DNA of 54,856 nt from a virus, in IMG/VR virus record IMGVR_UViG_3300042565_002302, positions 1 to 54,856 of that record; one strand, 5' to 3'. A program made the translations under genes and the position numbers. The notes under the pieces were generated by a model. That model was not told the origin of the DNA, did not search any database, and saw nothing but the letters and a program-made list of their open reading frames with translations. Position 1 is the first letter of the stretch; every line of letters starts with the position of its first letter. Positions 1 through 37,734 of this stretch are shown one piece after another.

Positions 1-887
1 TTTTCACCATTCTTATATGAACCCTTAAACATTAATTGTCCATTATCATAATATTTTTCCCATATACCATCTTTTTCACCATTCTTATATGAACCCTTAT
101 ACCATAATTGTCCATTACTCCAATATTCTTCCCAATAACCATCTCTTAAATTATTCTTATATGAACCCTTAAACCATAATTGTCCATTATAGTGATATTC
201 TTCCCATATACCTTGTTTTTTTCCGGTATTAATATCATACTGATTAATCCTCAACCCATCTACAATGGGTTGATCCTTATTCCATTGAGCCCATCTAGAA
301 TCTTCTCCACTTAATTTACGTGGAATAAAGAGTTTTTTCTTATCTTCATTAATATTTTCAGTTAATTTTTTAATTAATTTTCCATTCTTATATGAACCCT
401 TATAATCTAATTGTCCATTACCAAAATACCTCTCCCATATACCATCTTTTTCACCATTCTTATATGAACCCTTAAACCATAATTGTCCATTACTCCAATA
501 TTCTTCCCAATAACCATCTCTTAAATTATTCTTAAATGAACCCTTATAATCTAATTGTCCATTACTCCAATATTCTTCCCATATACCATCTTTTTCACCA
601 TTCTTATATGAACCCTTAGACCATAATTTTCCATTATCGTGATAATACTCCCAATAACCTTCTTCTTTACCATTCTTATATGAACCCTTAGACCATAATT
701 TTCCATTAAAATGATAAGCCTCCCATATACCTTCTTTATTACCGGTATTAATATTATATTGATTAATTCTTAATCCATCTACGATGGGTTGTTCTTTATT
801 CCAATCAAACCATCTGGAATCTTCTCCACTTAATTTACGTGGAATAAAGAGTTTTTTCTTTTGTTCTTCTGTTATTATAATTTTCAT
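1..887 (-). CDS. MORN_2-repeat polyprotein with head-leader start (3' end cut off)
   Basis: The gene starts at an ATG 1 nt after the stop of the upstream gene and is open to the window edge. It begins MKIIITEEQKKKLFIPR, which fuses the leader type of its neighbours directly to the KKLFIPR cassette. A conserved block follows (SGEDSRW, WNKEQPIVDG, RINQY, NTG), then five copies of a 23-residue repeat of the form G-x-W-E-x-Y-x-x-N-G-x-L-x-x-K-G-S-x-K-N. The segment LTENINEDKKKLFIPR (near 320-365) then starts a second cassette with at least three more repeats. The repeats match the MORN_2 (YwqK-like) pattern. The internal L-T-E and I-N-E triplets before the second cassette look like prohead-protease sites. 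It is a paralogue of the 1668-residue protein at 4452-9458. The biochemical role is unknown. Confidence 0.8.
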   Translation of the reverse strand, partial: MKIIITEEQKKKLFIPRKLSGEDSRWFDWNKEQPIVDGLRINQYNINTGNKEGIWEAYHFNGKLWSKGSYKNGKEEGYWEYYHDNGKLWSKGSYKNGEKDGIWEEYWSNGQLDYKGSFKNNLRDGYWEEYWSNGQLWFKGSYKNGEKDGIWERYFGNGQLDYKGSYKNGKLIKKLTENINEDKKKLFIPRKLSGEDSRWAQWNKDQPIVDGLRINQYDINTGKKQGIWEEYHYNGQLWFKGSYKNNLRDGYWEEYWSNGQLWYKGSYKNGEKDGIWEKYYDNGQLMFKGSYKNGE

Positions 888-888
888 T

Positions 889-1287
889 TTAATATTTAAA
901 TATTTTAGTAAATATTTCAGGTGCCAAATCTAAATCTAAGATCCTAACCCTAATTTTCATACCATTTTTAATAGCTTTAACCACACGATGTTGTCCATCT
1001 AATATACGTATAAACTCACCACCACTCTTTATTAATATAATAGGGTATTTCAAATCCGCATTATCAATTCTTTTTGGATCTCTTTCAACATCTATTAATA
1101 AATGTTTAATCTTATTAGGGTCTATTTCAAACCCATTATCTAATTGTTCAATCACATCATCAAATGTGATTTTAACTATCTTACCACCTATTTCATCTCC
1201 CCAAGATGAATTAACACCACTCCCTTCAGGTTGTTTGAAACTTTCACTTAATAAATCAAATTGTTTTTTTGTTATTATAATTTTCAT
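889..1287 (-). CDS. ParB/sulfiredoxin-like fold protein with N-terminal head leader
   Basis: 132 residues. The N-terminus MKIIITKKQFDLLSES is the shared leader, with a candidate cut after L13-S14-E15. The rest contains YPIILIK, then ILDGQHRVVKAI with DGQHR at 97-101. This is the G-x-H-R signature of the ParB/Srx superfamily, whose members bind or hydrolyse nucleotides and include nucleases. The gene lies 1 nt from each neighbour (stop at 889, next ATG at 887), so it is probably co-translated with them. The ParB-like fold is read from one motif and secondary-structure-like spacing. A head-packaged ParB-like nuclease or regulator is an inference. Confidence 0.65.
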   Translation of the reverse strand: MKIIITKKQFDLLSESFKQPEGSGVNSSWGDEIGGKIVKITFDDVIEQLDNGFEIDPNKIKHLLIDVERDPKRIDNADLKYPIILIKSGGEFIRILDGQHRVVKAIKNGMKIRVRILDLDLAPEIFTKIFKY

Positions 1288-1288
1288 C

Positions 1289-1549
1289 TTAATATTTTGT
1301 TATTTTTAACACCAATTTCCCATTTCCTTTTATGGCTCTATGCCATTGATGTCTTGGTATTTCAATCTTACCTTCCATTTTAATTGGTAATTCATTATCC
1401 CTTTGAAACATCCAATCTGTTTCACCAATTACCTCAACAATCCTATCTTCATTATCCCGATGCCATATAAGTTCCCCAGAATCTAACTCAGAATCAAACT
1501 CTCTTATAACAACATTTGTTTCAATTTCTTTATCTAAATATGGTTTCAT
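1289..1549 (-). CDS. Small cupin-like hypothetical protein
   Basis: 86 residues without the leader seen in its neighbours. It contains LIWHRDNEDRIVEV, FQRDNELPI and IEIPRHQWHRAIKG. The P-x-x-x-x-H arrangement near the C-terminus and the upstream W-H-x-D resemble the two metal-binding motifs of cupin folds. Similar short proteins occur in marine T4-like phages as far as I recall. The function is unknown. It sits between a leader-bearing gene and the 339-residue modular protein, and ends 1 nt before the next gene. Confidence 0.5.
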   Translation of the reverse strand: MKPYLDKEIETNVVIREFDSELDSGELIWHRDNEDRIVEVIGETDWMFQRDNELPIKMEGKIEIPRHQWHRAIKGNGKLVLKITKY

Positions 1550-1573
1550 AATATATTGATTTATAAGTAGTTA

Positions 1574-2593
1574 TTACCAATAACCACTTGTACTACCTTT
1601 AACAAGTCCTGATCTATTGAGGCGGCAAGCCCAATATCCAGCCGTCATTCTATCTTTCTTCTTAGCGCAATTGTGTCTTGCGGCAAAACTCTTTCTTGCT
1701 TTAGAATTACCCACTCGTGCTTTTAAACCACCTTTTTTATCACCAAAAGTAATCTTTTTTATATTACCTGTTGATGGGTTTTTAACATATACAACATATT
1801 TCTTACCCGAACCGGTATTTCTTTTAATTTTATTTAATTTAGGGTGTTTCTTTTCTTTCTCCTCAATAATGCTCTCAATTAAACCTTTAGATAAATCAGT
1901 CAAATATTTATTCATTTCATTAGCATAAGTTTTACTTTTAACTGTCCCTGTATAATATTCTGAATTTTCAAAATCAATAAAGTTTTCATAAGCCAAATCA
2001 CCCCAACCTTTTTCTTTAAGATATTTATCAATTTCATCAATATCAATTTCATCTTTTATATTATCATCTTCATATTTACCACCATCGTATTCAATTAAAA
2101 ATACATCTAATGGTACAACTTCACCTCTAAATGTTCCGAATCTTCCTATATCAGTGCTTTCAAATAATTCTTCATCACTACTATCTAATTCAATTGATCC
2201 ACTATCATATAATCTTCTTGTTTCAGATAATAAATCAATATGGGCTTCACTACCTGGTCTATACACACTTTCATTAACAGATATACCATTTATTAAATGA
2301 TATTTTAATCCTTCACTAATTACTTTTTTCATACTTATACTTTCATTTACATCATTATTTCTTAATTCATCCAAATATTTTTCAATACCTTCTCTATCTT
2401 CACGATTAAATACTTTTAATAATTTAACGTTTTTAGTTGATATGGATTTGCGATCCCCACCTTTTTTTATATAAACCAATCTTTCATCCAAGGCGTGTAA
2501 TGGTACGTCTTGATACCTATATTTTTTATTAAAATAAGCCAATGGAATCATTATTTCTATTACAGCTGTTTTATTAGTCATATACATTTTCAT
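1574..2593 (-). CDS. Modular phage protein with 'GxKYHLxNGIS' and C-terminal 'VYVKNPxTGNxKKxxFGD' domain
   Basis: 339 residues as drawn. ATGs at 2593, 2587 and 2581 are possible starts; the last gives an 8-nt ATGACTAA overlap with the upstream stop and is attractive. After about 90 residues come VNESISMKKVISEGLKYHL and ISVNESVYRPGSEAH, then TDIGRFGTFRGEVVPLDVF. The C-terminal part (KKYVVYVKNPSTGNIKK, FGDKKGG, KSFAARHNC, YWACRLNR) is a Cys/His-containing module I recognise from many marine T4-like phage proteins of unknown function. Several V/I-x-E triplets before S or G (VNES, ISEG, VNES, LSET) look like head-protease sites. It may therefore be a virion protein that is cut internally. The function is not known. 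Confidence 0.6.
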   Translation of the reverse strand: MKMYMTNKTAVIEIMIPLAYFNKKYRYQDVPLHALDERLVYIKKGGDRKSISTKNVKLLKVFNREDREGIEKYLDELRNNDVNESISMKKVISEGLKYHLINGISVNESVYRPGSEAHIDLLSETRRLYDSGSIELDSSDEELFESTDIGRFGTFRGEVVPLDVFLIEYDGGKYEDDNIKDEIDIDEIDKYLKEKGWGDLAYENFIDFENSEYYTGTVKSKTYANEMNKYLTDLSKGLIESIIEEKEKKHPKLNKIKRNTGSGKKYVVYVKNPSTGNIKKITFGDKKGGLKARVGNSKARKSFAARHNCAKKKDRMTAGYWACRLNRSGLVKGSTSGYW

Positions 2594-3962
2594 TATTTAC
2601 ATTCATATTTATTATATAATATTTTTTACCTTTATATGTATAAGTTATTGGTTCTGCTTTAGCGTCAATACAATATGTCGGATAATCTTTTAATAATCTA
2701 TCTAAATCAAAATAACCATCATAGATAAATAACATTCCAGGTAAACCATCAATATTACTATATTTTGGTGGTTGATTACTCGTTCCTTTATATTTATTCT
2801 CATCATAAAACCCAACCGGATCTTCCATAAATTCTTTATTCAAATCATTTAATTCGGATGATTTTTTAATTTCCTCATCGGTAAGATTATCAATATCATA
2901 TTCATAAAAAAATCTAAAACGACTACTATCAATCAACATATCATAAAATAAATCATCCCAAGAAAAATATTTTAAAATATTTTTTTCGCCAACACGTTTA
3001 ATTAAATTATTTGTTTTGGTTTTACTTGAATTTAAAACGTCACTACTATCAATATTCTCTATAATATCATCTATTGTTTCATCATTAACAACAATATATG
3101 CCCCAATAATACTATTAACCCTATTAATTTTTTTACGTAAATAAAATTGTGAGTCTTCAATAGACATAATTTCAGGGAAATAATTTTCACCAAGAGATTT
3201 AGACCAACTACCAAATACTTTAGCCATTAATTTTTTAGGATTATCAATGGTTTTATCTTGTAAATATTTTTTTATACTACTAGCAACTTTTTTTGGGTAT
3301 ATAATATCACCATTATATTCATTATATTCAATTCTATCCGTATCACTAAAACTAACATTTAATCTATTATCTATTGCATCATACCCTTGAACCTTACCAA
3401 AAACATCAACAAATAATGCGGTTTTATAATCATCACCATTACTACTCCTATTTAAGATAAAAAACAAACTACCATTTTCCATATAATTCTCATAAGTGCT
3501 ATCATCTGTCACACACCATTTAGTACCTTTACCATAATAACAAGAAGCTTCTGCTGTTGATGGGTATAATATGACAATACTATCGAATTCATCAACCATA
3601 TCAATATCATTCTTTAATTGTATCTTTCTGTTCGATCTCTGAAAAGCCTTTTCCGTTGCTACGGTAAATGAATCTAAGTCTTTATATGAGTATATATCGG
3701 TAGATAACTCAGCATTCTTAAATCTTTGTGGGTAGGTTTCTAATACAATTAAAGCATTTCCAACCTTACCCCAATATTCGTGATCGAAATTTTTAACATT
3801 CCTTAACCCAAACTCTTCAACAAATCTTTTATATAACCAATGAAGATATTTTTTATTTGGTGAAGGATCATAATCATATAATTCAGATATTAAATCCGAA
3901 ATAAATACATTTTCTTGTAAATTATATTTCTTTAAAAACTTTTCTAAGAATTTTTCTTCCAT
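2574..3962 (-). CDS. WC-motif phage protein (paralogue 1)
   Basis: 462 residues. Two signatures stand out: YDPSPNKKYLHWLYKRF at 31-47 and ASCYYGKGTKWC at 139-150, the latter followed by a Y-x-x-x-G-x-L-F-F-I-L-N-R segment. The same pair, in the same order, occurs in the 595-residue protein at 11392-13179, so the two are diverged paralogues. I know the family only as uncharacterised proteins of large T4-like phages. The conserved Cys pair and Trp could form a catalytic or binding site. Its ATG overlaps the stop of the leader-bearing 150-residue gene by 1 nt (TAATG), which implies translational coupling. Confidence 0.65.
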   Translation of the reverse strand: MEEKFLEKFLKKYNLQENVFISDLISELYDYDPSPNKKYLHWLYKRFVEEFGLRNVKNFDHEYWGKVGNALIVLETYPQRFKNAELSTDIYSYKDLDSFTVATEKAFQRSNRKIQLKNDIDMVDEFDSIVILYPSTAEASCYYGKGTKWCVTDDSTYENYMENGSLFFILNRSSNGDDYKTALFVDVFGKVQGYDAIDNRLNVSFSDTDRIEYNEYNGDIIYPKKVASSIKKYLQDKTIDNPKKLMAKVFGSWSKSLGENYFPEIMSIEDSQFYLRKKINRVNSIIGAYIVVNDETIDDIIENIDSSDVLNSSKTKTNNLIKRVGEKNILKYFSWDDLFYDMLIDSSRFRFFYEYDIDNLTDEEIKKSSELNDLNKEFMEDPVGFYDENKYKGTSNQPPKYSNIDGLPGMLFIYDGYFDLDRLLKDYPTYCIDAKAEPITYTYKGKKYYIINMNVNNENVYD

Positions 3963-4414
3963 TACATATCTTTGATTTCATCAACCAGTTTTTTATTTAA
4001 TCCAACTTTCTTAGATGTTTTTTCATCCAACCAATATACATCAGCATATTTACCACCTTTAGGGTGCTTTAAATAAGGTCCAATTTCAAACTTACCACCT
4101 TCAAGTTTTCTTTTACCCCAATCATTAATAAGGCTTTTAGCTTCATTGTGAATCTCATTCTCCAATTCTTTATTTTCATCATCTTTAGCACCTTGTTTAC
4201 CTTTAAATCTTATAGATAACACCGCACCTGATGGATCACCCAATTCAATACTTACATGTTCTCCGTGTCTTTTTGATAAATCTTTAAAGTCATTATAAAG
4301 ATCTTTAATATGTGATTTTAATTTATCAAATGTCATTTCATTAAATGCCCATCCTTCCATCATTAATTCATTTGCCAACCTATCAATTTGGCTTTCTGTT
4401 AATCTTATTTTCAT
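3962..4414 (-). CDS. Leader-bearing hypothetical protein
   Basis: 150 residues starting MKIRLTESQIDRLANELMMEG, the shared leader, with a candidate cut after L-M-M-E20. The remainder is highly charged, with SIELGDPSGAVLSIRFKGKQG and a lysine-rich C-terminus, and matches no family I know. A TATTTATA octamer lies 27 nt upstream (4442-4449). It sits between the giant polyprotein (upstream) and the WC-motif protein (downstream). I infer a small head-packaged protein, processed to about 130 residues. Confidence 0.6.
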   Translation of the reverse strand: MKIRLTESQIDRLANELMMEGWAFNEMTFDKLKSHIKDLYNDFKDLSKRHGEHVSIELGDPSGAVLSIRFKGKQGAKDDENKELENEIHNEAKSLINDWGKRKLEGGKFEIGPYLKHPKGGKYADVYWLDEKTSKKVGLNKKLVDEIKDM

Positions 4415-4451: not shown

Positions 4452-7400
4452 TTATTTGTTTTTAAAGTGAGTTAACATTGCATAAACACCAGCGCTTTTT
4501 AAAATTGTCATAAATGCATCCATAAAATCAACATTTCCTAATAAACTATTTATAATATCCGAATAACCTGGCATTAAAGATGTAAACGCCACAATTGATA
4601 ACATCTCATTTTTGAAACCCTTTAATGATTTATTTTGTCTAAAATAAACAACAATCATAGCAATCGCTAAGTTTGTAATTTCAAAAGCATTTAATGGTTG
4701 AACTGCATACTCTTTAATTAAAGAACTAATATTTCTAATAAGTGCATTTATACCAGAACCAAATGAAGTTAAAAATCCTACATCTAATCCAATATTCTTT
4801 TTAAATTTTTTTAATATATCATCTACATTATCACTTATTTTACTCTCATTTAAACCTGTATACTCACTTTGTTTATATAATTCTTCAAATTTATCCCTAA
4901 CTTTTTTACTTCTCAATGGTATGGTTAAATCAAAATACATATGACCTAAAGGAGCATCTTCACCTATATCCCAACTTAAATTACTTAATATTCTATTTTT
5001 TAAATCATTAAAAACGTTTTCTTTTTCAGATAATTTCCCATCTTCCAAGTAATAATCATCGGAAAATACATCCCAATATATATTAAATAAGTTTGTTGTA
5101 TCACCACCATCCATATCACCTTCACCCCATCTGCCAGTCATATCACCAGTAGTTAAATCGTATTGATTTATTTTTTTACCATCAATAGTAGGTTGCATTT
5201 CATTCCACTCCTTTTTTCTTTCGTCAATTCTTTTTGGTGTGAATAATTTATTTTTTGATCGCTCAGATTCAGTTAACGGTATTCTTTTAACTAACTCACC
5301 ATTCTTATATAAACCCTTATACATTAATTGTCCATTATCAAAATACCATTCCCATATACCATCTCTTTCACCATTATTAAATGAACCCTTAAACCATAAT
5401 TTTCCATTATCAAAATATTTTTCCCAATAACCATCTCTTAAACCATTATTAAATGAACCCTTATAATCTAATTGTCCATTAAAATAATACCTCTCCCAAT
5501 AACCTTCTTTCTTACCATTATTAAATGAACCCTTATAATCTAATTGTCCATTATAGTGATATTCTTCCCAATAACCTTCTTTTTCTCCATTCTTATATGA
5601 ACCCTTAGACCGTAATTTTCCATCAGTATAATAATACCTCTCCCATATACCATCTTTTTCACCATTCTTATATGAACCCTTATAATCTAATTGTCCATTA
5701 AAATAATACCTCTCCCAATAACCTTCTTCTTTACCATTCTTATATGAACCCTTAGACCATAATTTTCCATTAAAATGATAAGCCTCCCATATACCTTCTT
5801 CTTTACCATTCTTATATGAACCCTTATACTCTAATTTTCCATTAGAATGATATCCTTCCCAATAACCTTCTTCTTTACCAGTATTAATATCATACTGATT
5901 AATACGTTCTCCATCTACGATGGGTTGATCCTTATTCCAATTAGCCCACCTGGAATCTTCTCCACTTAATTTACGAGGAATAAACAATTTCTTTTTTGGT
6001 TGTTCAGATTCGAAGATTTTATCATAAAATCTTTTAATTAATTCTCCATTCTTATATGAACACTTATACGCTAATTGTCCATTATCATAATAATACCATT
6101 TACATATGCCATCCTTTAAACCATTCTTATATGAACCCTTATACATTAATTGTCCATTACTCCAATATTCTTCCCAATAACCTTCTTTTTCTCCATTCTT
6201 ATATGAACCCTTAGACCATAATTTTCCATTATAGTGATATTCTTCCCAATAACCTTCTTTTTCTCCATTATTAAATGAACCCTTAAACCATAATTTTCCA
6301 TCAGTATAATAATATTCCCAATAACCTTCTTTTTCTCCATTCTTATATGAACCCTTATACTCTAATTTTCCATCCGAATAATATTCTTCCCAATAACCAT
6401 CTTTTTTACCGGTGTTAATATCATATTGATTAATTCTTAATCCATCTACGATGGGTTGTTCTTTATTCCATTGAGCCCATCTAGAATCTTCTCCACTTAA
6501 TTTACGAGGAATAAAGAGTTTTTTCTTTTCAGATTCATCTAATCTTTTAATTAATCCTCCATTCTTATATGAACCCTTATACCTTAATTGTCCATTACTC
6601 CAATATTCTTCCCATATACCATCTTTTTCTCCATTATTAAATGAACCCTTATAATCTAATTGTCCATTAGAATAATACCATTCCCATATACCATCTCTGT
6701 CACCATTCTTATATGAACCCTTATACCTTAATTTTCCATTACTCCAATACTCTTCCCAATAACCTTCTTCTTTACCATTCTTATATGAACCCTTAAAATC
6801 TAATTGTCCATTATAATGATAATATTCCCAATAACCATCTTTTTCACCATTCTTAAATGAACCCTTATAATATAATTGTCCATTATCATAATATTCCTCC
6901 CATATACCTTCTTTTTCTCCATTATTATATGAACCCTTATAATCTAATTGTCCATTATCAAAATACCATTCCCATATACCTTCTTTATTACCGGTATTAA
7001 TATCATATTGATTAATTCTTATACCATCTTTAATTGGTTGATCCTTATTCCAATCAGCCCATCTGGAATCTTCACCAGATATTTTACGAGGAATAAAGAG
7101 TTTTTTCTTTTCAGATTCATCTAATCTTTTAATTAATCCTCCATTCTTATATGAACCCTTATACATTAATTGTCCATTACTCCAATATTCTTCCCAATAA
7201 CCTTCTTTTTCTCCATTATTAAATGAACCCTTATACGCTAATTTTCCATTATAGTGATATTCTTCCCAATAACCATCTCTTAAACCATTCTTATATGAAC
7301 CCTTATAATCTAATTGTCCATTATCATAATATTCTTCCCAATAACCTTCTTTTTCTCCATTCTTATATGAACCCTTAGACCATAATTTTCCATTATCATA

Positions 7401-9458
7401 ATATTTTTCCCATATACCATCTCTATCACCATTCTTATATGAACCCTTAGACCATAATTTTCCATTATCGTGATAATACTCCCAATAACCTTCTTTTTCT
7501 CCATTCTTATATGAACCCTTATACTCTAATTTTCCATTATCATAATACCATTCCCATATACCTTCTTTCTTACCAGTATTAATATTATATTGATTAATTC
7601 TTAATCCATCTACGATGGGTTGATCCTTATTCCAATCAGACCATCTAGAATCTTCTCCACTTAATTTACGAGGAATAAAGAGTTTTTTCTTTTCAGATTC
7701 ATCTAATGTTTCAATGGTATATTCTTTATCGGTTGTTTCAAGTCCCAATTCATATATCTTATCCATTAAACCGCTTCTTCTCATAGTTTTAAAAACAAGA
7801 TTTTCAGTTGCCATCTCACCACCTTTATCCAAACCAGCTTTTCTATATTTCTTTATCTTATCTTTTATCATATCCAAAGCTTTTCTGGTTTCTTCATACT
7901 TACCATCTTTATATAATTCAACAATTCTATTATATTCACTTTCAAATTGTTTTACCTTCTTTTTAATGGTTTCCCTATCAATCTTAACGTCCTGTGGTTT
8001 TGGTTTTTTAATCCATTCATCATTCATTACAGAATATATACCAGTGCTTTCATGTGGTTCATCTTTATCCTGAGCATATAATTCAACATCATAACCTTTG
8101 ATTTTAATATCGTGATTGTCATTCCACACAGCTTTCTTAGCGTCAAAATATTTCTTGATTAATTCCTTATCATCAAACTTATTGAAGTCTATAAGAACAT
8201 GTAAATCCACGTCTGAATATTGACTCCAATTATAATTAGCTAAAGAACCTGTGAATATAATATCCTCAATAGGTGCTTCAACTTCCAATGTTTTATGAAA
8301 CTCCTGACCGATAGCAACTAATGTGTCTTTTATCTTCTTTTTTAATTTATCATCTTCATCCCACACTTTAGGGTTTAATTCCTTTTGTGGTTCAAATGAT
8401 TTTAATATCTCATCCTTGTTTTCTATTTGTTCATTTATATTCATATCAATAGGGATTAATTTTTTTCCAACATATTCAAATATCTGTTTAATTTTCACAT
8501 CCTTACCATTTATTATATTCACCTCTTTTTCGTGAGGATTTCCTTTTATATCAACACCCTCAATAGTAATACTATTTGGTTCTACATAACCCTCAATAAC
8601 AATTACCTTCTGTTTGTTTTTACCATAATATTGTTGGTTAATTTCAGCAACATCAATTACATTATTACGTGACGTTGTCCAATGATTACCCATATCTTTT
8701 AGATTAACCTCAGATAAATTATCTATAAATAAAACCCTATAAATATTACCACCATTTTCAATTAAATCCTCCACTTCCGATTCATACAACTCTAATTCCC
8801 AATTAGCCGTATTATCTGAACCATAATAATTGATCCAAGATTTTAATATCTCATCCTTGTTTTCCATTTGTTCTTTTATTATCATATTATCATAATCATC
8901 TTTCCAATCCATACTTTCCCTTACACTACCATCCTTATCATAAACGATATATGCGATTTTCTTAGCCATTTTATATATATCTTTACGTCTAATATCACCA
9001 TATTCAAAATATTCAATAGATAACCCATCGGGCTTACCATCAATATAATTTACAATTTTTTCCAATTGATTATTAAATGAGTAATACCATTTCCATATAC
9101 CATATTTTTTACCATCATCAAAACTACCAATTTCCCCTAAACTACCATTCATGTAATACATTTTCCATAAACCAGTAAACTCATTATTTTTTGTCTGACC
9201 ATCAAATTGGATTTTACCGTTTAAATAGAATGTTTGGTGTATCCCTTCGTACTCACCATCTTTATACCCTATTTTATACAATATTCTACCATTATTATCA
9301 TACATAATCCATAAACCATCTTTTCTACCGGTATTTACGTTATATTGATTAATACGTTCCCCATCAACTATCGGTTGTTCTTTATTCCATTGAGCCCATC
9401 TATTATCCTCACCAGATATATTACGAGGAATAAATAATTTCTTTTTTGCATCACCCAT
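4452..9458 (-). CDS. Giant MORN_2 polyprotein with ART-like, nucleotidyltransferase and membrane modules
   Basis: 1668 residues. Order: a KKKLFIPR cassette and divergent MORN_2 repeats (5-190); a possible ADP-ribosyltransferase-like domain (205-330: R241, TTS 261-263, E310-K-E312); a pol-beta-type nucleotidyltransferase (365-575: G404-S405, D416-x-D418, D457/E459); four cassettes each with SEKKKLFIPR or similar, GEDSRW, WNKxQPI, RINQY and 6, 6, 5 and 8 MORN_2 repeats; a repeat-free module (1398-1538); and a hydrophobic C-terminus (1539-1668). Modules are separated by L-D-E/S at 587, 781 and 975, I-F-E/S at 1150, L-T-E/S at 1397 and L-N-E/S at 1538. These resemble T4 prohead-protease sites. 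The start has TATTTATA 6 nt upstream. Domain calls are from motifs. Processing and head packaging are inference. Confidence 0.8.
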   Translation of the reverse strand: MGDAKKKLFIPRNISGEDNRWAQWNKEQPIVDGERINQYNVNTGRKDGLWIMYDNNGRILYKIGYKDGEYEGIHQTFYLNGKIQFDGQTKNNEFTGLWKMYYMNGSLGEIGSFDDGKKYGIWKWYYSFNNQLEKIVNYIDGKPDGLSIEYFEYGDIRRKDIYKMAKKIAYIVYDKDGSVRESMDWKDDYDNMIIKEQMENKDEILKSWINYYGSDNTANWELELYESEVEDLIENGGNIYRVLFIDNLSEVNLKDMGNHWTTSRNNVIDVAEINQQYYGKNKQKVIVIEGYVEPNSITIEGVDIKGNPHEKEVNIINGKDVKIKQIFEYVGKKLIPIDMNINEQIENKDEILKSFEPQKELNPKVWDEDDKLKKKIKDTLVAIGQEFHKTLEVEAPIEDIIFTGSLANYNWSQYSDVDLHVLIDFNKFDDKELIKKYFDAKKAVWNDNHDIKIKGYDVELYAQDKDEPHESTGIYSVMNDEWIKKPKPQDVKIDRETIKKKVKQFESEYNRIVELYKDGKYEETRKALDMIKDKIKKYRKAGLDKGGEMATENLVFKTMRRSGLMDKIYELGLETTDKEYTIETLDESEKKKLFIPRKLSGEDSRWSDWNKDQPIVDGLRINQYNINTGKKEGIWEWYYDNGKLEYKGSYKNGEKEGYWEYYHDNGKLWSKGSYKNGDRDGIWEKYYDNGKLWSKGSYKNGEKEGYWEEYYDNGQLDYKGSYKNGLRDGYWEEYHYNGKLAYKGSFNNGEKEGYWEEYWSNGQLMYKGSYKNGGLIKRLDESEKKKLFIPRKISGEDSRWADWNKDQPIKDGIRINQYDINTGNKEGIWEWYFDNGQLDYKGSYNNGEKEGIWEEYYDNGQLYYKGSFKNGEKDGYWEYYHYNGQLDFKGSYKNGKEEGYWEEYWSNGKLRYKGSYKNGDRDGIWEWYYSNGQLDYKGSFNNGEKDGIWEEYWSNGQLRYKGSYKNGGLIKRLDESEKKKLFIPRKLSGEDSRWAQWNKEQPIVDGLRINQYDINTGKKDGYWEEYYSDGKLEYKGSYKNGEKEGYWEYYYTDGKLWFKGSFNNGEKEGYWEEYHYNGKLWSKGSYKNGEKEGYWEEYWSNGQLMYKGSYKNGLKDGICKWYYYDNGQLAYKCSYKNGELIKRFYDKIFESEQPKKKLFIPRKLSGEDSRWANWNKDQPIVDGERINQYDINTGKEEGYWEGYHSNGKLEYKGSYKNGKEEGIWEAYHFNGKLWSKGSYKNGKEEGYWERYYFNGQLDYKGSYKNGEKDGIWERYYYTDGKLRSKGSYKNGEKEGYWEEYHYNGQLDYKGSFNNGKKEGYWERYYFNGQLDYKGSFNNGLRDGYWEKYFDNGKLWFKGSFNNGERDGIWEWYFDNGQLMYKGLYKNGELVKRIPLTESERSKNKLFTPKRIDERKKEWNEMQPTIDGKKINQYDLTTGDMTGRWGEGDMDGGDTTNLFNIYWDVFSDDYYLEDGKLSEKENVFNDLKNRILSNLSWDIGEDAPLGHMYFDLTIPLRSKKVRDKFEELYKQSEYTGLNESKISDNVDDILKKFKKNIGLDVGFLTSFGSGINALIRNISSLIKEYAVQPLNAFEITNLAIAMIVVYFRQNKSLKGFKNEMLSIVAFTSLMPGYSDIINSLLGNVDFMDAFMTILKSAGVYAMLTHFKNK
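5300..7565 (-). repeat. 69-bp MORN_2-coding tandem repeats
   Basis: About 25 imperfect 69-bp units coding G-x-W-E-x-Y-x-x-N-G-x-L-x-x-K-G-S-x-K-N-G, interrupted by three longer conserved cassette sequences (near 5870-6030, 6410-6550 and 6980-7130). Units are very similar at DNA level, so the shifted frames also stay open and produce spurious reading frames. The array is prone to recombination or slippage. The window's left end (1-735) holds a second array of the same unit. Confidence 0.9.
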
Positions 9459-10598: not shown

Positions 10599-11395
10599 AA
10601 AAACTTACAAAACAACAGCGTTATTATAGAAAAAATAAAGCTAAATACAGAAAGTGGAGAAGAAAACGAGTTAAACGTCTAGTCGAAAGCGGTGAAATGG
10701 CTAAGATTAATAAACTCAAAAAAAAAATACGCAATAAGAAAAAAGAAAACAAAAAAAGAAATAAAAGAAAAATAGAAAGAAAGAAAAACGCAATCTATTT
10801 TATAGCCACAATTAGGGGTAATAAACCATTTAAAATTTTTAATAGGTATGTCGATTATTCTTGGGCATCTAAAAAATGGGATACCATTTTAGAAGAACAA
10901 AAAAACTTATTTTATCCAGGTCTTAAATACCCCTTAATGTTTCTTTATAAAGTAGAACCAGGTGAAGAAAATACAATTACGCAAAGAAATAGTATAGGTA
11001 AAATTATTGAAACCAAAATACCTGGTTATAAAATCATATTTCAAGATATATTTTACAATGAAATTAAGATATATTTTAAAAACAAATCTGTTAGAGTTCC
11101 TGCTTATTTCCTTATTCAACTATTAGATATGAATAGTAATATTAAACAAGTATTTCTTATTAAAAATAAAATATGTATTGAGGATGAAGGTAAATACTTT
11201 TTATTCGTCTGCAATGATAAAAATGAAGCATCTTCTATTAAAAATAGATTAAGAGAAAAATATATGGAAACAGGTAAAACTAATGTTCTTTTCTTTAACG
11301 ATGTAAATACAATATCAATGAAAGAAGAAATCTACGATAATATAGTTAAACAAGGTATATGCGATTTAAAATATTTAAATAGGAGTGACAATTAA
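10589..11395 (+). CDS. Hypothetical protein with strongly basic N-terminus
   Basis: 268 residues. The first 70 residues are almost entirely Lys/Arg-rich (KKLTKQQRYYRKNKAKYRK and following), as in nucleic-acid-binding tails. The remainder is an ordinary mixed alpha/beta-looking region (NAIYFIATIRGNKPFKIF, YPLMFLYKVEPGEEN). The start overlaps the preceding gene's end. It runs convergently into the 595-residue gene and their stops overlap by 4 nt. No family was recognised; a nucleic-acid-binding role is a guess from charge. Confidence 0.6.
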   Translation: MALKKLTKQQRYYRKNKAKYRKWRRKRVKRLVESGEMAKINKLKKKIRNKKKENKKRNKRKIERKKNAIYFIATIRGNKPFKIFNRYVDYSWASKKWDTILEEQKNLFYPGLKYPLMFLYKVEPGEENTITQRNSIGKIIETKIPGYKIIFQDIFYNEIKIYFKNKSVRVPAYFLIQLLDMNSNIKQVFLIKNKICIEDEGKYFLFVCNDKNEASSIKNRLREKYMETGKTNVLFFNDVNTISMKEEIYDNIVKQGICDLKYLNRSDN

Positions 11396-13179
11396 TTATC
11401 ATCAAAAAGTTTGTAATTATACAATAAACTATAAAATTCATCAATATTGTTTAAAATGTATTTACTAAAACCATTTTTACTTTTTAATGTAACAGATATC
11501 GTTAAATCATCCATATCAATAGTATTTACCCTAAAATAAAAATCTTTGTTTCTTGGTAATTCGTACCATCGTTCAAGTTGATAATTTTTATTTATTTCAT
11601 TAAATATTTCTATATACTTGTTGAAGTTTTCATTTTCTTCGATATCATCTTTAATCTTTTCCAAGTTCCAATTCACTTCACGTTGAAACCTTTCTTCATC
11701 AAAAGCATCCCAATCAATCATTTCATATGAATTGTCCATCCAACCACCAATATTATCATCTTCAGTTATAGTCTTTAATAATGAATTAATTGTATTTTTT
11801 TTGGGTTGGTATTCGTCAAATAACTTAATTAGATTATTAACAGTTGTTTTATACATATAATAACAACTTTCACCTGATTTTTCAATACCATATTTTTCAA
11901 AATAATTACATAATTCTTCTTCAATAGTCTGTTTAGCACCTTCCTCAGCAGCTCTATTCATCTCTGTTTGGTAATCACTAATTATATTACTAATCCACCT
12001 ATCAAACATATCAGCTAAAGTTTTAGAAACAATAGTTCTTACCTCATCGTCACTAAAATCAGCATTAACATACTGAGGTAAAATGAATTTAAGTATTTCC
12101 CTTAATAATTTAATATTTTCATCATTAAATCTATCTACTATATAACCTTCATCCCATTCCGAATCAATATCCATAGGATAAAAATCATAATCATTATAAT
12201 AACGACTATCAATAATACTTAATAAGTAGTCATCACCATCAGATAAATCAAATAATTTTTTATAGTTATCTAACCCATCAAAATCAAACTTTATTACGGA
12301 TTTACCCCTATCTTTTTCATTCATAATAAATTTTGTAATATTATCAGAACCAATAATTTGATTTGAGTTTTCTTTACCATTGATAAAAGCCTTTAATAGA
12401 CTAACAATAGGTAATTGTTCGGTTAGTTCATTTATTAGGTTAGTTAACTCCGGAAATTCGTCATATAAAAAACCAATTCCTTTTTCAATATCAGCTGAAT
12501 TATATACGTATTTTTTTAGTTTACCACCATCTTTTTCCATATATAAAGCAGCCTTATCCCTAGGATAACGCTTATCAATAAAATAATATAAAATACCGTT
12601 ACTTGAATATTTTATAAAATTAGTTTCGCTTTCAGTTGATGATGTACACCATTTAGTTTCTTTACCGTAATAACAAGAAGCATCATATGTTAAAGGTCTA
12701 ACAACTAAAAAATTACTATCTTCAAATACTTTATCCACACCTTTTTTAGCTATTCTTTCTTTTTCAAACCTTGTTTTATTTTCTTCTAATATTTGTAACA
12801 TAGCGAGAAGATAAAAAGGTATCACATAAGCATTAATATCTTTTGGGTTTTTTGTTATTTTGTCAATATCAATAATATTTTGACCTTCAAATTTAACACC
12901 AGTTTCAATGAGTCTATTTACAAATTGATTTACAATATCATCATTAATTCTTTTATAATTTTTTTCAAAAGGAATGACAATTCTATTTATCATCTCTTCA
13001 ATCTTATCATAATCCTTAAACTTTAAAGAAGAGTCTAAATACTTACCAATCCACTCAGAATATTTACCTTGTGATGTTGGATCAACAGTAAACATCCTAT
13101 CAATGAATTCACCATCGGTAGGATATTTATTTTTTACTTTTTCAATTATTTCCTTTTTACCCTCTAATAAAACATTCAT
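11392..13179 (-). CDS. WC-motif phage protein (paralogue 2)
   Basis: 595 residues. It shares VDPTSQGKYSEWIGKYL (32-48) and ASCYYGKETKWC (167-178) with the 462-residue protein at 2574-3962, again followed by a Y-x-x-x-G-I-L-Y-Y-F-I-D-K segment. The N-terminus MNVLLEGKK could be a very short leader with L-L-E before G. The C-terminal 400 residues are acidic, mostly helical in composition and not similar to paralogue 1. It is directly downstream of the bS21 gene, with its ATG adjoining that stop. Function unknown. Confidence 0.65.
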   Translation of the reverse strand: MNVLLEGKKEIIEKVKNKYPTDGEFIDRMFTVDPTSQGKYSEWIGKYLDSSLKFKDYDKIEEMINRIVIPFEKNYKRINDDIVNQFVNRLIETGVKFEGQNIIDIDKITKNPKDINAYVIPFYLLAMLQILEENKTRFEKERIAKKGVDKVFEDSNFLVVRPLTYDASCYYGKETKWCTSSTESETNFIKYSSNGILYYFIDKRYPRDKAALYMEKDGGKLKKYVYNSADIEKGIGFLYDEFPELTNLINELTEQLPIVSLLKAFINGKENSNQIIGSDNITKFIMNEKDRGKSVIKFDFDGLDNYKKLFDLSDGDDYLLSIIDSRYYNDYDFYPMDIDSEWDEGYIVDRFNDENIKLLREILKFILPQYVNADFSDDEVRTIVSKTLADMFDRWISNIISDYQTEMNRAAEEGAKQTIEEELCNYFEKYGIEKSGESCYYMYKTTVNNLIKLFDEYQPKKNTINSLLKTITEDDNIGGWMDNSYEMIDWDAFDEERFQREVNWNLEKIKDDIEENENFNKYIEIFNEINKNYQLERWYELPRNKDFYFRVNTIDMDDLTISVTLKSKNGFSKYILNNIDEFYSLLYNYKLFDDN

Positions 13180-21573: not shown

Positions 21574-22299
21574 TTACTTTTTAGGGATTAATTCATCTAA
21601 CATACCACGTCTTCTAGCTGCAAGATACAAAGCATTATTTTTATCAACTAAATCTTTTCTACCTTTATAATCACCTTTTTTAAATTCTTGTCTTATCAAT
21701 TCAGGTGTCCAAGATATTTGTAAGGTATCAGGGATTAATTCATCTAACATTTTACGTTTTCTAGCTGCATTATATAAAGCAAAATTTTTAATTTGTAAAT
21801 CACCCCTACTTTTATAATCACCTTTTTTAAATTCTTGTCTTATCAATTCAGGCGTCCAAGATGTTTGTAAGGTATCAGGGAATAATTCATCTAACATACC
21901 ACGTCTTTTAGCTGCAAGATACAAAGCTTTATTTTTAATTTGTAAATCACCCCTACCTTTATAATCACCTTTTTTAAATTCTTGTCTTATCAATTCAGGC
22001 GTCCAAGATATTATGAGTTTATCAGGTATTAATTCATCTAACATACCAAGTCTTTTAGCTGCAAGAAACAAAGCATTATTTTTATTAACTAAATCTTTTC
22101 TACTTTTATAATCACCATCGTAAAATTCTTTTCTTATTTGTTCTGGCGTTCGTTTAATTATTAATGTATGGGGTATTAATTCATCTAACATACCACGTTT
22201 TTTAGCTGCAAAATACAAAGCATTATTTTTTTCCTTTAAATCAGATCTACTATTATAATCACCTTTTTTAAATTCTTGTCTTATCAATTCAGGCGTCCA
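21574..22299 (-). repeat. 147-bp tandem repeats (five units)
   Basis: Five in-frame units of 147 bp encode the 49-residue repeat. Neighbouring units are nearly identical over long stretches (for example around 21690, 21840 and 21985), indicating recent amplification. Unit number probably varies between related phages. Confidence 0.85.
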
Positions 22300-22680
22300 A
22301 GATGTTTGATACGTATCAGGAAATGCTTGAGTTAATATATCATCCACACCTTTTGTTAAATTATATTTCTTAGATATTTTAACAGATAAATTATATAATT
22401 TTACATCCCTTACTTTTAAATCTTTTCTACCCTTATAATTACCATCAATTATTTCTTGTTTAATTTGTTCTGGTGTCATTTTATCATAAAATAATGTTTT
22501 AATATAACCCACTAAACCTTGCTTTCTAGCTTTATCGTATAATTCAGGAAATTTAACTTCAAATTCGTCAATGTCATTAACAATATTTATCGCCTGCTTA
22601 ATTTCTTCCCACCATAGACTAGGAGCACCTTCATTTAATAAAAGTGAATTAAATTGTTGTTCAGTAATTATTATTCTCAT
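21574..22680 (-). CDS. Leader-bearing protein with 49-residue tandem repeats
   Basis: 368 residues. The leader MRIIITEQQFNSLLLNEG has L15-N16-E17 before G18, the best match to the T4 prohead-protease site in the window. After an N-terminal region and a degenerate unit (68-127) come five repeats at exact 49-residue spacing (W128, R177, W226, W275, W324): W-T-P-E-L-I-R-Q-E-F-K-K-G-D-Y then R-x-D-L...A-L-Y-x-A-A-K-R-x-G-M-L-D-E-L. The x-A-L-Y-x-A-A-x-x-x-G-x-L-D-E pattern recalls short helical repeats of phage proteins and homing-endonuclease tails, which suggests DNA binding. No nuclease motif is seen. Confidence 0.65.
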   Translation of the reverse strand: MRIIITEQQFNSLLLNEGAPSLWWEEIKQAINIVNDIDEFEVKFPELYDKARKQGLVGYIKTLFYDKMTPEQIKQEIIDGNYKGRKDLKVRDVKLYNLSVKISKKYNLTKGVDDILTQAFPDTYQTSWTPELIRQEFKKGDYNSRSDLKEKNNALYFAAKKRGMLDELIPHTLIIKRTPEQIRKEFYDGDYKSRKDLVNKNNALFLAAKRLGMLDELIPDKLIISWTPELIRQEFKKGDYKGRGDLQIKNKALYLAAKRRGMLDELFPDTLQTSWTPELIRQEFKKGDYKSRGDLQIKNFALYNAARKRKMLDELIPDTLQISWTPELIRQEFKKGDYKGRKDLVDKNNALYLAARRRGMLDELIPKK

Positions 22681-37254: not shown

Positions 37255-37734
37255 TTATATGGTTTTAGAAAAACTAACAACTTTTCTATTTTGATGTGTA
37301 AAAATAAAATCCATTTTAATACTATCAACCACACTATCAACTTCAATCTCTAAATCATTTATAACAAGATCTTTGGGATTGTGTTGAGATATTAAATAAT
37401 TTAAATAACTAGATATAGTATGGGAGTAATCTATCAAATCAGGATATTTAACATTATAATATAGTATTTTATTATCCAAATCTTCACCATTACTAATAAT
37501 AATTTTACCTTCATATCTAATAGCATTATCAATATCAGCATAATCTAAATCATATTCCCACAATTCATCTACTTTAATAATATATTTTAATGATTTAATA
37601 TTATTTTTAGTTAAAAAATTATTACTAGCATCTTTAACCATTTTTCCAAATTCAACAGATCTCTCGTCAATGTTTCTTGGGATGAAAAGTTTCTTTTTTT
37701 CTTCTCTTAATATTTTTTTAATAATATCTTTCAC
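37255..37734 (-). CDS. Leader plus KKLFIPR cassette, hypothetical
   Basis: 159 residues. MKDIIKKILREEKKKLFIPR joins a short leader (candidate cut after L-R-E11) directly to the KKLFIPR motif found after each cut site of the MORN polyprotein. The remainder (RNIDERSVEFGKMVKDASNN then mixed alpha/beta) is unrelated to MORN repeats. This shows that the leader/KKLFIPR pair is a portable module and not a property of the repeats. It begins 1 nt after the stop of the 870-residue tail gene. Function unknown. Confidence 0.6.
   Translation of the reverse strand: MKDIIKKILREEKKKLFIPRNIDERSVEFGKMVKDASNNFLTKNNIKSLKYIIKVDELWEYDLDYADIDNAIRYEGKIIISNGEDLDNKILYYNVKYPDLIDYSHTISSYLNYLISQHNPKDLVINDLEIEVDSVVDSIKMDFIFTHQNRKVVSFSKTI

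Follow-up and report, generated by a model that had tools for sequence, protein, structure and literature searches.

How should we read a phage gene that repeats one kind of module along a very long chain, with a triplet resembling a head-protease site at module borders? The case lies on IMG/VR virus record IMGVR_UViG_3300042565_002302, of which positions 1 to 54,856 (one stretch of 54,856 nucleotides, here called the window) were analysed. Phage head proteases are known mainly for the removal of leaders and scaffold. In T4, the protease gp21 recognizes L/I-X-E and cuts behind the Glu, and internal proteins are directed to the head core by short N-terminal leaders (PMC9026906). Judging from sequence comparison, the gene probably encodes a polyprotein of capsid-internal (ejection-type) proteins that would be processed by the head protease of a T4-like phage.

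The minus-strand frame runs from 9458 to 4452 without interruption over 1668 residues. Its parts are listed below, where G002 denotes the related record IMGVR_UViG_3300023179_003795.

4452..9458, minus: predicted polyprotein, 1668 aa, 197.7 kDa, one continuous frame
8871..9458, minus: module 1 (residues 1-196), header MGDAKKKLFIPR and MORN_2 repeats, without a capsid-targeting-like leader
8871..8879, minus: predicted cut IKE/Q (E196)
8430..8870, minus: module 2 (residues 197-343), 147 aa, family unassigned, missing from the G002 homologue exactly between both sites
8430..8438, minus: predicted cut INE/Q (E343)
7698..8429, minus: module 3 (residues 344-587), Pol-beta-type nucleotidyltransferase, 244 aa
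7698..7706, minus: predicted cut LDE/S (E587)
7116..7697, minus: module 4 (residues 588-781), header and MORN_2 repeats
7116..7124, minus: predicted cut LDE/S (E781)
6534..7115, minus: module 5 (residues 782-975), header and MORN_2 repeats
6534..6542, minus: predicted cut LDE/S (E975)
6009..6533, minus: module 6 (residues 976-1150), header and MORN_2 repeats
6009..6017, minus: predicted cut IFE/S (E1150)
5268..6008, minus: module 7 (residues 1151-1397), header and MORN_2 repeats
5268..5276, minus: predicted cut LTE/S (E1397)
4845..5267, minus: module 8 (residues 1398-1538), diverged header (IDER type) and a domain of no assigned family
4845..4853, minus: predicted cut LNE/S (E1538)
4455..4844, minus: module 9 (residues 1539-1668), hydrophobic and probably membrane-active; its G002 homologue is 77% identical and stands behind INE/G

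A first-pass annotation had placed six triplets in this protein, and all six (from E587 to E1538) lie where it put them. It had also described seven modules; its six borders stand, but the total is nine, IKE/Q and INE/Q having been missed. These two sit in the contexts IIKE/QMENKDEILKSW and NINE/QIENKDEILKSF, the residues after the cut being QMENKDEILKS and QIENKDEILKS. The coincidence that it reported between module borders and T4-gp21-type L/I-x-E sites thus extends to eight borders, although the three LDES sites are recent duplicates that represent one event and are mutually non-independent. The nine predicted pieces comprise 196, 147, 244, 194, 194, 175, 247, 141 and 130 residues (14.4-29.7 kDa); GLIKRLDESEKKK is an example of a peptide spanning a predicted cut. 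Five modules had been said to begin with a common header. Three do so with an exact SEKKKLFIPR (588, 782, 976) and one with SEQPKKKLFIPR (1151), but the fifth has a diverged SERSKNKLFTPKRIDER (1398) and lacks GEDSRW. A sixth header, MGDAKKKLFIPR, is the N terminus of the polyprotein itself.

The MORN_2 profile (PF07661) matches the polyprotein with an E value of 7e-101, with 23 repeats passing, and profile searches recovered no peptidase family among its domains. Of the two enzyme-like domains claimed earlier, the nucleotidyltransferase holds up, with a marginal Pfam score but clear orthologues, whereas residues 197-343 match no family. By eye, this second module had been suspected to be an ADP-ribosyltransferase; the idea was dropped, as searches of profiles, phages, viral contigs and PDB sequences gave it no support and model confidence stayed below 50.

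Relatives on independent contigs had been set beforehand as the test of the border sites, and the polyprotein reading withstood it. The header is carried by only a few IMG/VR contigs. From 41 distinct header occurrences that were tabulated, the junction test took the 21 that are internal or stand behind a longer leader, in the window and its relatives. Every one of these 21 distinct junctions has [LI]xE at most six residues from the header, where the expectation from shuffling each 14-aa linker is 4.9, with the reservation that there are few full-cassette relatives and that part of their sites go back to a common ancestor. Module number and content (nucleotidyltransferase, lysozyme, number of MORN modules) change across the same set. 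P3 and P1 are kept, while P2 can be any of D, F, T, N, A, L and S, P1' is S in most cases (D, A, E, T, N or L in the others) and the distance to the header varies. Because P2, P1' and linker length all vary, the junctions are not mere recent copies. Deviant borders also occur, namely MVE/S before one lysozyme, LTE/L in one linker and VQE/S in a more distant fusion. Taken together, a polyprotein with gp21-type border sites is, on the comparative evidence, a well-supported prediction.

The relatives also indicate how modules come and go. In G002, the homologue L023 (735 aa) occupies the corresponding locus, its adjoining gene being 90% identical to that of the window, and its order is MORN, VIKE/Q nucleotidyltransferase, TIDE/S header module and NINE/G hydrophobic module. 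It lacks module 2 and the four internal MORN modules, with the gaps in register with the sites. Three other homologues (L025, L024 and L027) have two or three MORN modules followed by a phage lysozyme (Pfam E 2e-22; PHROG endolysin), the border of which reads LPITE/SKTPS, or MVE/S in L027. At a syntenic locus flanked by an 870-aa tail gene and a RuvC-like gene, a leader/header protein of 158-168 aa is encoded in the window and in five relatives. The G002 protein at this locus is 345 aa long: an additional module follows the leader, and a new INE/SEQS stands before the shared header module. There are also short genes in which a leader directly precedes the header, as in MKIIITE/EQKKKLFIPR, MKDIIKKILRE/EKKKLFIPR and KRVILE/DEEPKKKLFIPR.

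Leaders of this kind are found elsewhere in the window, as listed here.

1..887, minus: second multi-module protein, cut by the contig end; leader MKIIITE/EQ, a MORN module, LTE/N and INE/D, a MORN module
37255..37734, minus: single-module protein; leader MKDIIKKILRE/E, then the KKKLFIPR header as in the polyprotein; its syntenic counterpart in G002 has the additional module bounded by INE/S
889..4414, minus: genes downstream of the polyprotein, several beginning with leaders that end in [LI]xE, e.g. MKIRLTE/SQ (3962-4414) and MKIIITKKQFDLLSE/S (889-1287)

Genome-wide in the window group, [LI]xE[SAGDENQ] is enriched 3.0-fold in residues 3-20 versus 36-80 of predicted proteins, and LxES/IxES 7.5-fold; the same ratio is 0.6 for [LI]xD and 0.7 for [LI]xQ. 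The enrichment is 2.7- and 1.7-fold in two large relatives and weak in immuto, a cultured Flavobacterium phage. An unrelated head-operon gene has varied leaders, mostly ending in [LI]xE, before (A/Q)(P)IDYGxxPERM (e.g. IKLTE/APPIDY and RLRRRLNE/APIDY), and on contig G019 this gene is fused to its upstream neighbour with the junction LLE/APPIDYG. About a quarter of the predicted genes of G021 (IMGVR_UViG_3300032050_000001, 321 kb) start in the manner of MSKIVRLTE/SDL, MKYIITE/SQ or MNLNE/NISRVKELMG, and such leaders may identify a very large group of proteins internal to the capsid.

The nucleotidyltransferase allows predicted and native protein ends to be compared. Module 3 shows the GS...DxD motif of Pol-beta nucleotidyltransferases (GSLANYNWSQYSDVDLH); it matches PF01909 with E 9e-4, narrowly short of the cutoff, and phrog_36119 with E 3e-47. 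There are about 20 clear orthologues, most of them stand-alone genes near terminase and portal, with 245-264 aa versus 244 aa for the predicted cut product. When aligned, their start Met falls 1-2 residues past the INE/Q or IKE/Q cut (EQM/EQI), and they end near LDE/S. These stand-alone genes have neither site nor leader, and as they have no leaders, packaging is not implied for them. In a different phage, one gene (L134:1296-3281) joins a nucleotidyltransferase to an M23 peptidase and peptidoglycan-binding lysin through the junction KLNE/QTQS, which makes this gene a candidate for a further polyprotein.

The ends of the nucleotidyltransferase bear on the reading that best rivals processing. 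That is, the protein might remain an uncleaved multidomain ‘polyvalent’ protein, in which recombination fused leader-bearing genes and left the motifs as passive scars, or in which they are flexible linkers of a general kind. Injected proteins that combine several domains, among them ART, NTase and lysozyme, have been described, and some enter the capsid unprocessed, as the N4 vRNAP does (PMC5512222). Moreover, leaders with the L/I-x-E motif are abundant and gene fusion would bring them in. However, the internal borders (LIKxLPLTE, IKRLDE) do not look like remnants of leaders such as MKIIITE, P3 and P1 are kept amid change, and the nucleotidyltransferase has gained a site that its stand-alone genes lack. 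We consider passive fusion unlikely for these reasons.

Processing by a head protease presupposes a lineage that has one. The G002 portal shares about 55% identity with hundreds of portals in IMG/VR, and the portal-related genomes keep the T4 order of terminase, portal, S77 protease, scaffold and gp23. An S77 prohead protease is present in 10 of the 12 portal-related records searched. Neither the window contig, which is incomplete, nor the closest 98-kb relative has a protease or an intact capsid gene, and the nearest contigs are all fragments. The T4 gp23 cut LTE/A (E65/A) aligns with LINE/A in 21 relatives (LINE/Q in one of them). Across 82 distinct major capsid proteins, which represent the wider lineage (the capsid gene of the polyprotein's own clade was not found), the position of the T4 cut reads INE in all 82, followed by A in 71, S in six, T in three and Q in two. 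These next residues are of the same class as the S and Q in the polyprotein. In addition, the protease, scaffold and capsid genes of relatives start with KLLE/A, KSLLE/S and ALLE/S, and in immuto, whose capsid protein is 42% identical, the protease has LLTE/S and the scaffold AIAE/A.

A second rival accepts cleavage and assigns it to another protease, or to the infected cell rather than the capsid, for example for the late release of lysis/cell-wall enzymes and membrane modules. It could draw on the related polyproteins that end in phage lysozyme, on the fusion of a nucleotidyltransferase to an M23/peptidoglycan-binding lysin and on a G002 neighbour gene with a marginal holin-like match. Yet the same motif stands at the cleavage position of the capsid protein, protease and scaffold genes start with it, and it is the one that gp21 recognizes in T4 (PMC9026906), which leaves this explanation quite improbable.

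Close relatives did give gp23 matches, and these were set aside as capsid genes because each proved to be a small gene carrying part of the capsid protein. They are separate genes of about 70-140 aa, located at 93434-93673 and 94929-95174 in G002 and at L215:6001-6485, L216:5781-6402 and L067:7021-7236. Some have leader-like starts (MRTINQYIIE), and in G002 a TnpB-like gene separates the two pieces. No intact capsid gene was found on any of these contigs.

Predicted structure distinguishes border sites from similar triplets within modules. The first-pass annotation had stated that L-x-E is absent inside the repeats. In the five header modules this is correct for Leu, but not for Ile, as I-x-E occurs there eight times (GIWE); LGE is present in the first MORN module. 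In the AlphaFold model of residues 588-1025 (mean pLDDT 85), the MORN solenoids are rigid, and the low-confidence segments 781-788 and 976-989 coincide with the predicted cuts E781 and E975. A second model gives a confident nucleotidyltransferase and a low-confidence stretch at 582-602, around E587. The I-W-E triplets that the MORN model covers are in beta strands with pLDDT 88-97. As modelled, most border sites thus fall in low-confidence linkers and the inner I-W-E triplets in rigid strands, while E196 is predicted inside a helix with low confidence. The best PDB matches of the solenoid model are MORN1 proteins, and MORN repeats also dominated the fold search with the second model.

Ordinary MORN_2 repeat expansion, with border triplets that are coincidental or an assembly artefact, is extremely improbable: MORN_2 arrays are common, another phage has some 30 separate MORN_2 genes without sites and the tripeptide [LI]xE is frequent (28 in the polyprotein, ten of them LxE), but independent contigs share the architecture with different modules and keep the site at all 21 junctions. 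The phage with the separate genes (G001; L006, L017-L022) has about 30 stand-alone MORN_2 mini-genes within 25 kb, at 90-115.6 kb of IMGVR_UViG_3300031963_008158. They start with MxSKDITPYNEKGE or MNTSEIRKENLINLYNEKGE and have no L/I-x-E borders. This array was rejected as a close relative, given its separate genes, other start and lack of sites, and serves only as a distant MORN comparison.

Under the polyprotein reading, a T4-like phage, with related phages that infect Flavobacterium, would make one 198-kDa chain late and take it into the prohead core. A gp21-type (S77) prohead protease, acting in trans, would then cut behind the Glu of about eight L/I-x-E/(S/Q) sites located in flexible linkers. 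The products would be about nine proteins of 14-30 kDa: five MORN_2 beta-solenoids, the nucleotidyltransferase, module 2, a header-bearing module and the hydrophobic C-terminal module. The released proteins would be packaged alongside the DNA and would probably enter the host by ejection. The MORN_2 modules are probably binding scaffolds, and the hydrophobic end, together with the lysozymes of relatives, suggests help at the cell envelope during entry. With related polyproteins bearing lysozyme or other numbers of MORN modules, the gene would act as an interchangeable cargo cassette.

The weakest point of this scheme is how the chain is targeted, because the polyprotein has no leader. The N-terminal capsid targeting sequence of T4 IP/Alt proteins (about 10-19 aa, ending at the cut) is absent, and module 1 and four other multi-module proteins start M-S/G-D...KKLF. 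Other multi-module proteins do open with the leader MKIIITE/EQ (window 1-887, L036:10520, L042:1352 and L044:6630). The header itself might bind the core, or the chain might be targeted in some other way.

Several known systems share parts of this design. As in T4 IPI-III and Alt, short leaders end in L/I-x-E, the cut is predicted to follow Glu, the lineage has T4-type head genes and the cargo includes enzymes. Those T4 genes each yield one mature cargo protein, cut behind an N-terminal leader (Alt is also trimmed C-terminally), whereas the polyprotein has about eight predicted internal sites and about nine cargo modules in one chain. The inner-body/ejection proteins of phiKZ and SPN3US, cut by gp175/gp245, likewise have a short Glu-terminated motif (S/A-x-E, A-x-E), and SPN3US favours serine at P1'. 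Self-cleavage apart, the SPN3US cuts remove N-terminal propeptides (PMC10052503). As described, then, cutting in these phages amounts to propeptide removal and protease self-cleavage, without the splitting of a chain into several folded products. With MORN_2 repeat proteins (PF07661) the polyprotein shares the repeat family and the beta-solenoid fold, but unlike the others compared, its repeats sit in a header-plus-site cassette.

The nearest known concept is that of polyvalent proteins (Iyer et al. 2017), in which many unrelated domains occur together, co-delivery with DNA was proposed and a likeness to RNA-virus polyproteins was drawn (PMC5512222). The present protein also joins unrelated domains (MORN_2, nucleotidyltransferase and others, with lysozyme in relatives) in one mobile-element protein. 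In polyvalent proteins, release is ascribed to embedded peptidase domains (PMC5512222); here no peptidase is recognized and the sites fit a separate prohead protease. What appears to be new is the placing of prohead-protease-type sites between modules. In the open-access literature, most subscription journals being outside the scope of the search, we found no description of a phage polyprotein cut by a prohead protease. The same literature yielded no mass-spectrometry data for the lineage and no virion proteomics of the Flavobacterium relative.

If the proposal is true, this would be a DNA-phage counterpart of RNA-virus polyproteins, with cargo release coupled to capsid maturation. An [LI]xE with a small or polar residue behind it, at domain borders and N termini, would then be a signature for predicting which of these phages' many uncharacterized genes have packaged, ejected products. 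The design further hints at a modular way to load phage capsids with several proteins. On balance, we lean towards a wider reading as well, in which the prohead protease of a large T4-like lineage acts on polyproteins in general, L/I-x-E sites are where cargo genes fuse, swap and duplicate, and one gene loads a fixed-ratio bundle of effectors into the capsid.

Other observations concern the remaining window genes. A tblastn search for known phages akin to the window tail proteins returned none. A protein family with the ASCYYGKGTKWCT motif is encoded at 2574-3962 and 11392-13179 of the window, at L035:5613-7472 and at L023:15143-16321. Three of these four members match phrog_17056, there are several copies per phage, and the L023 copy is fused to MORN-like repeats. 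Finally, the window gene at 21574-22680 has repeats of about 38 aa (WTPELIRQEFKKGDYKSRGDL...), matches phrog_20046 and has the leader-like start MRIIITE/QQ.
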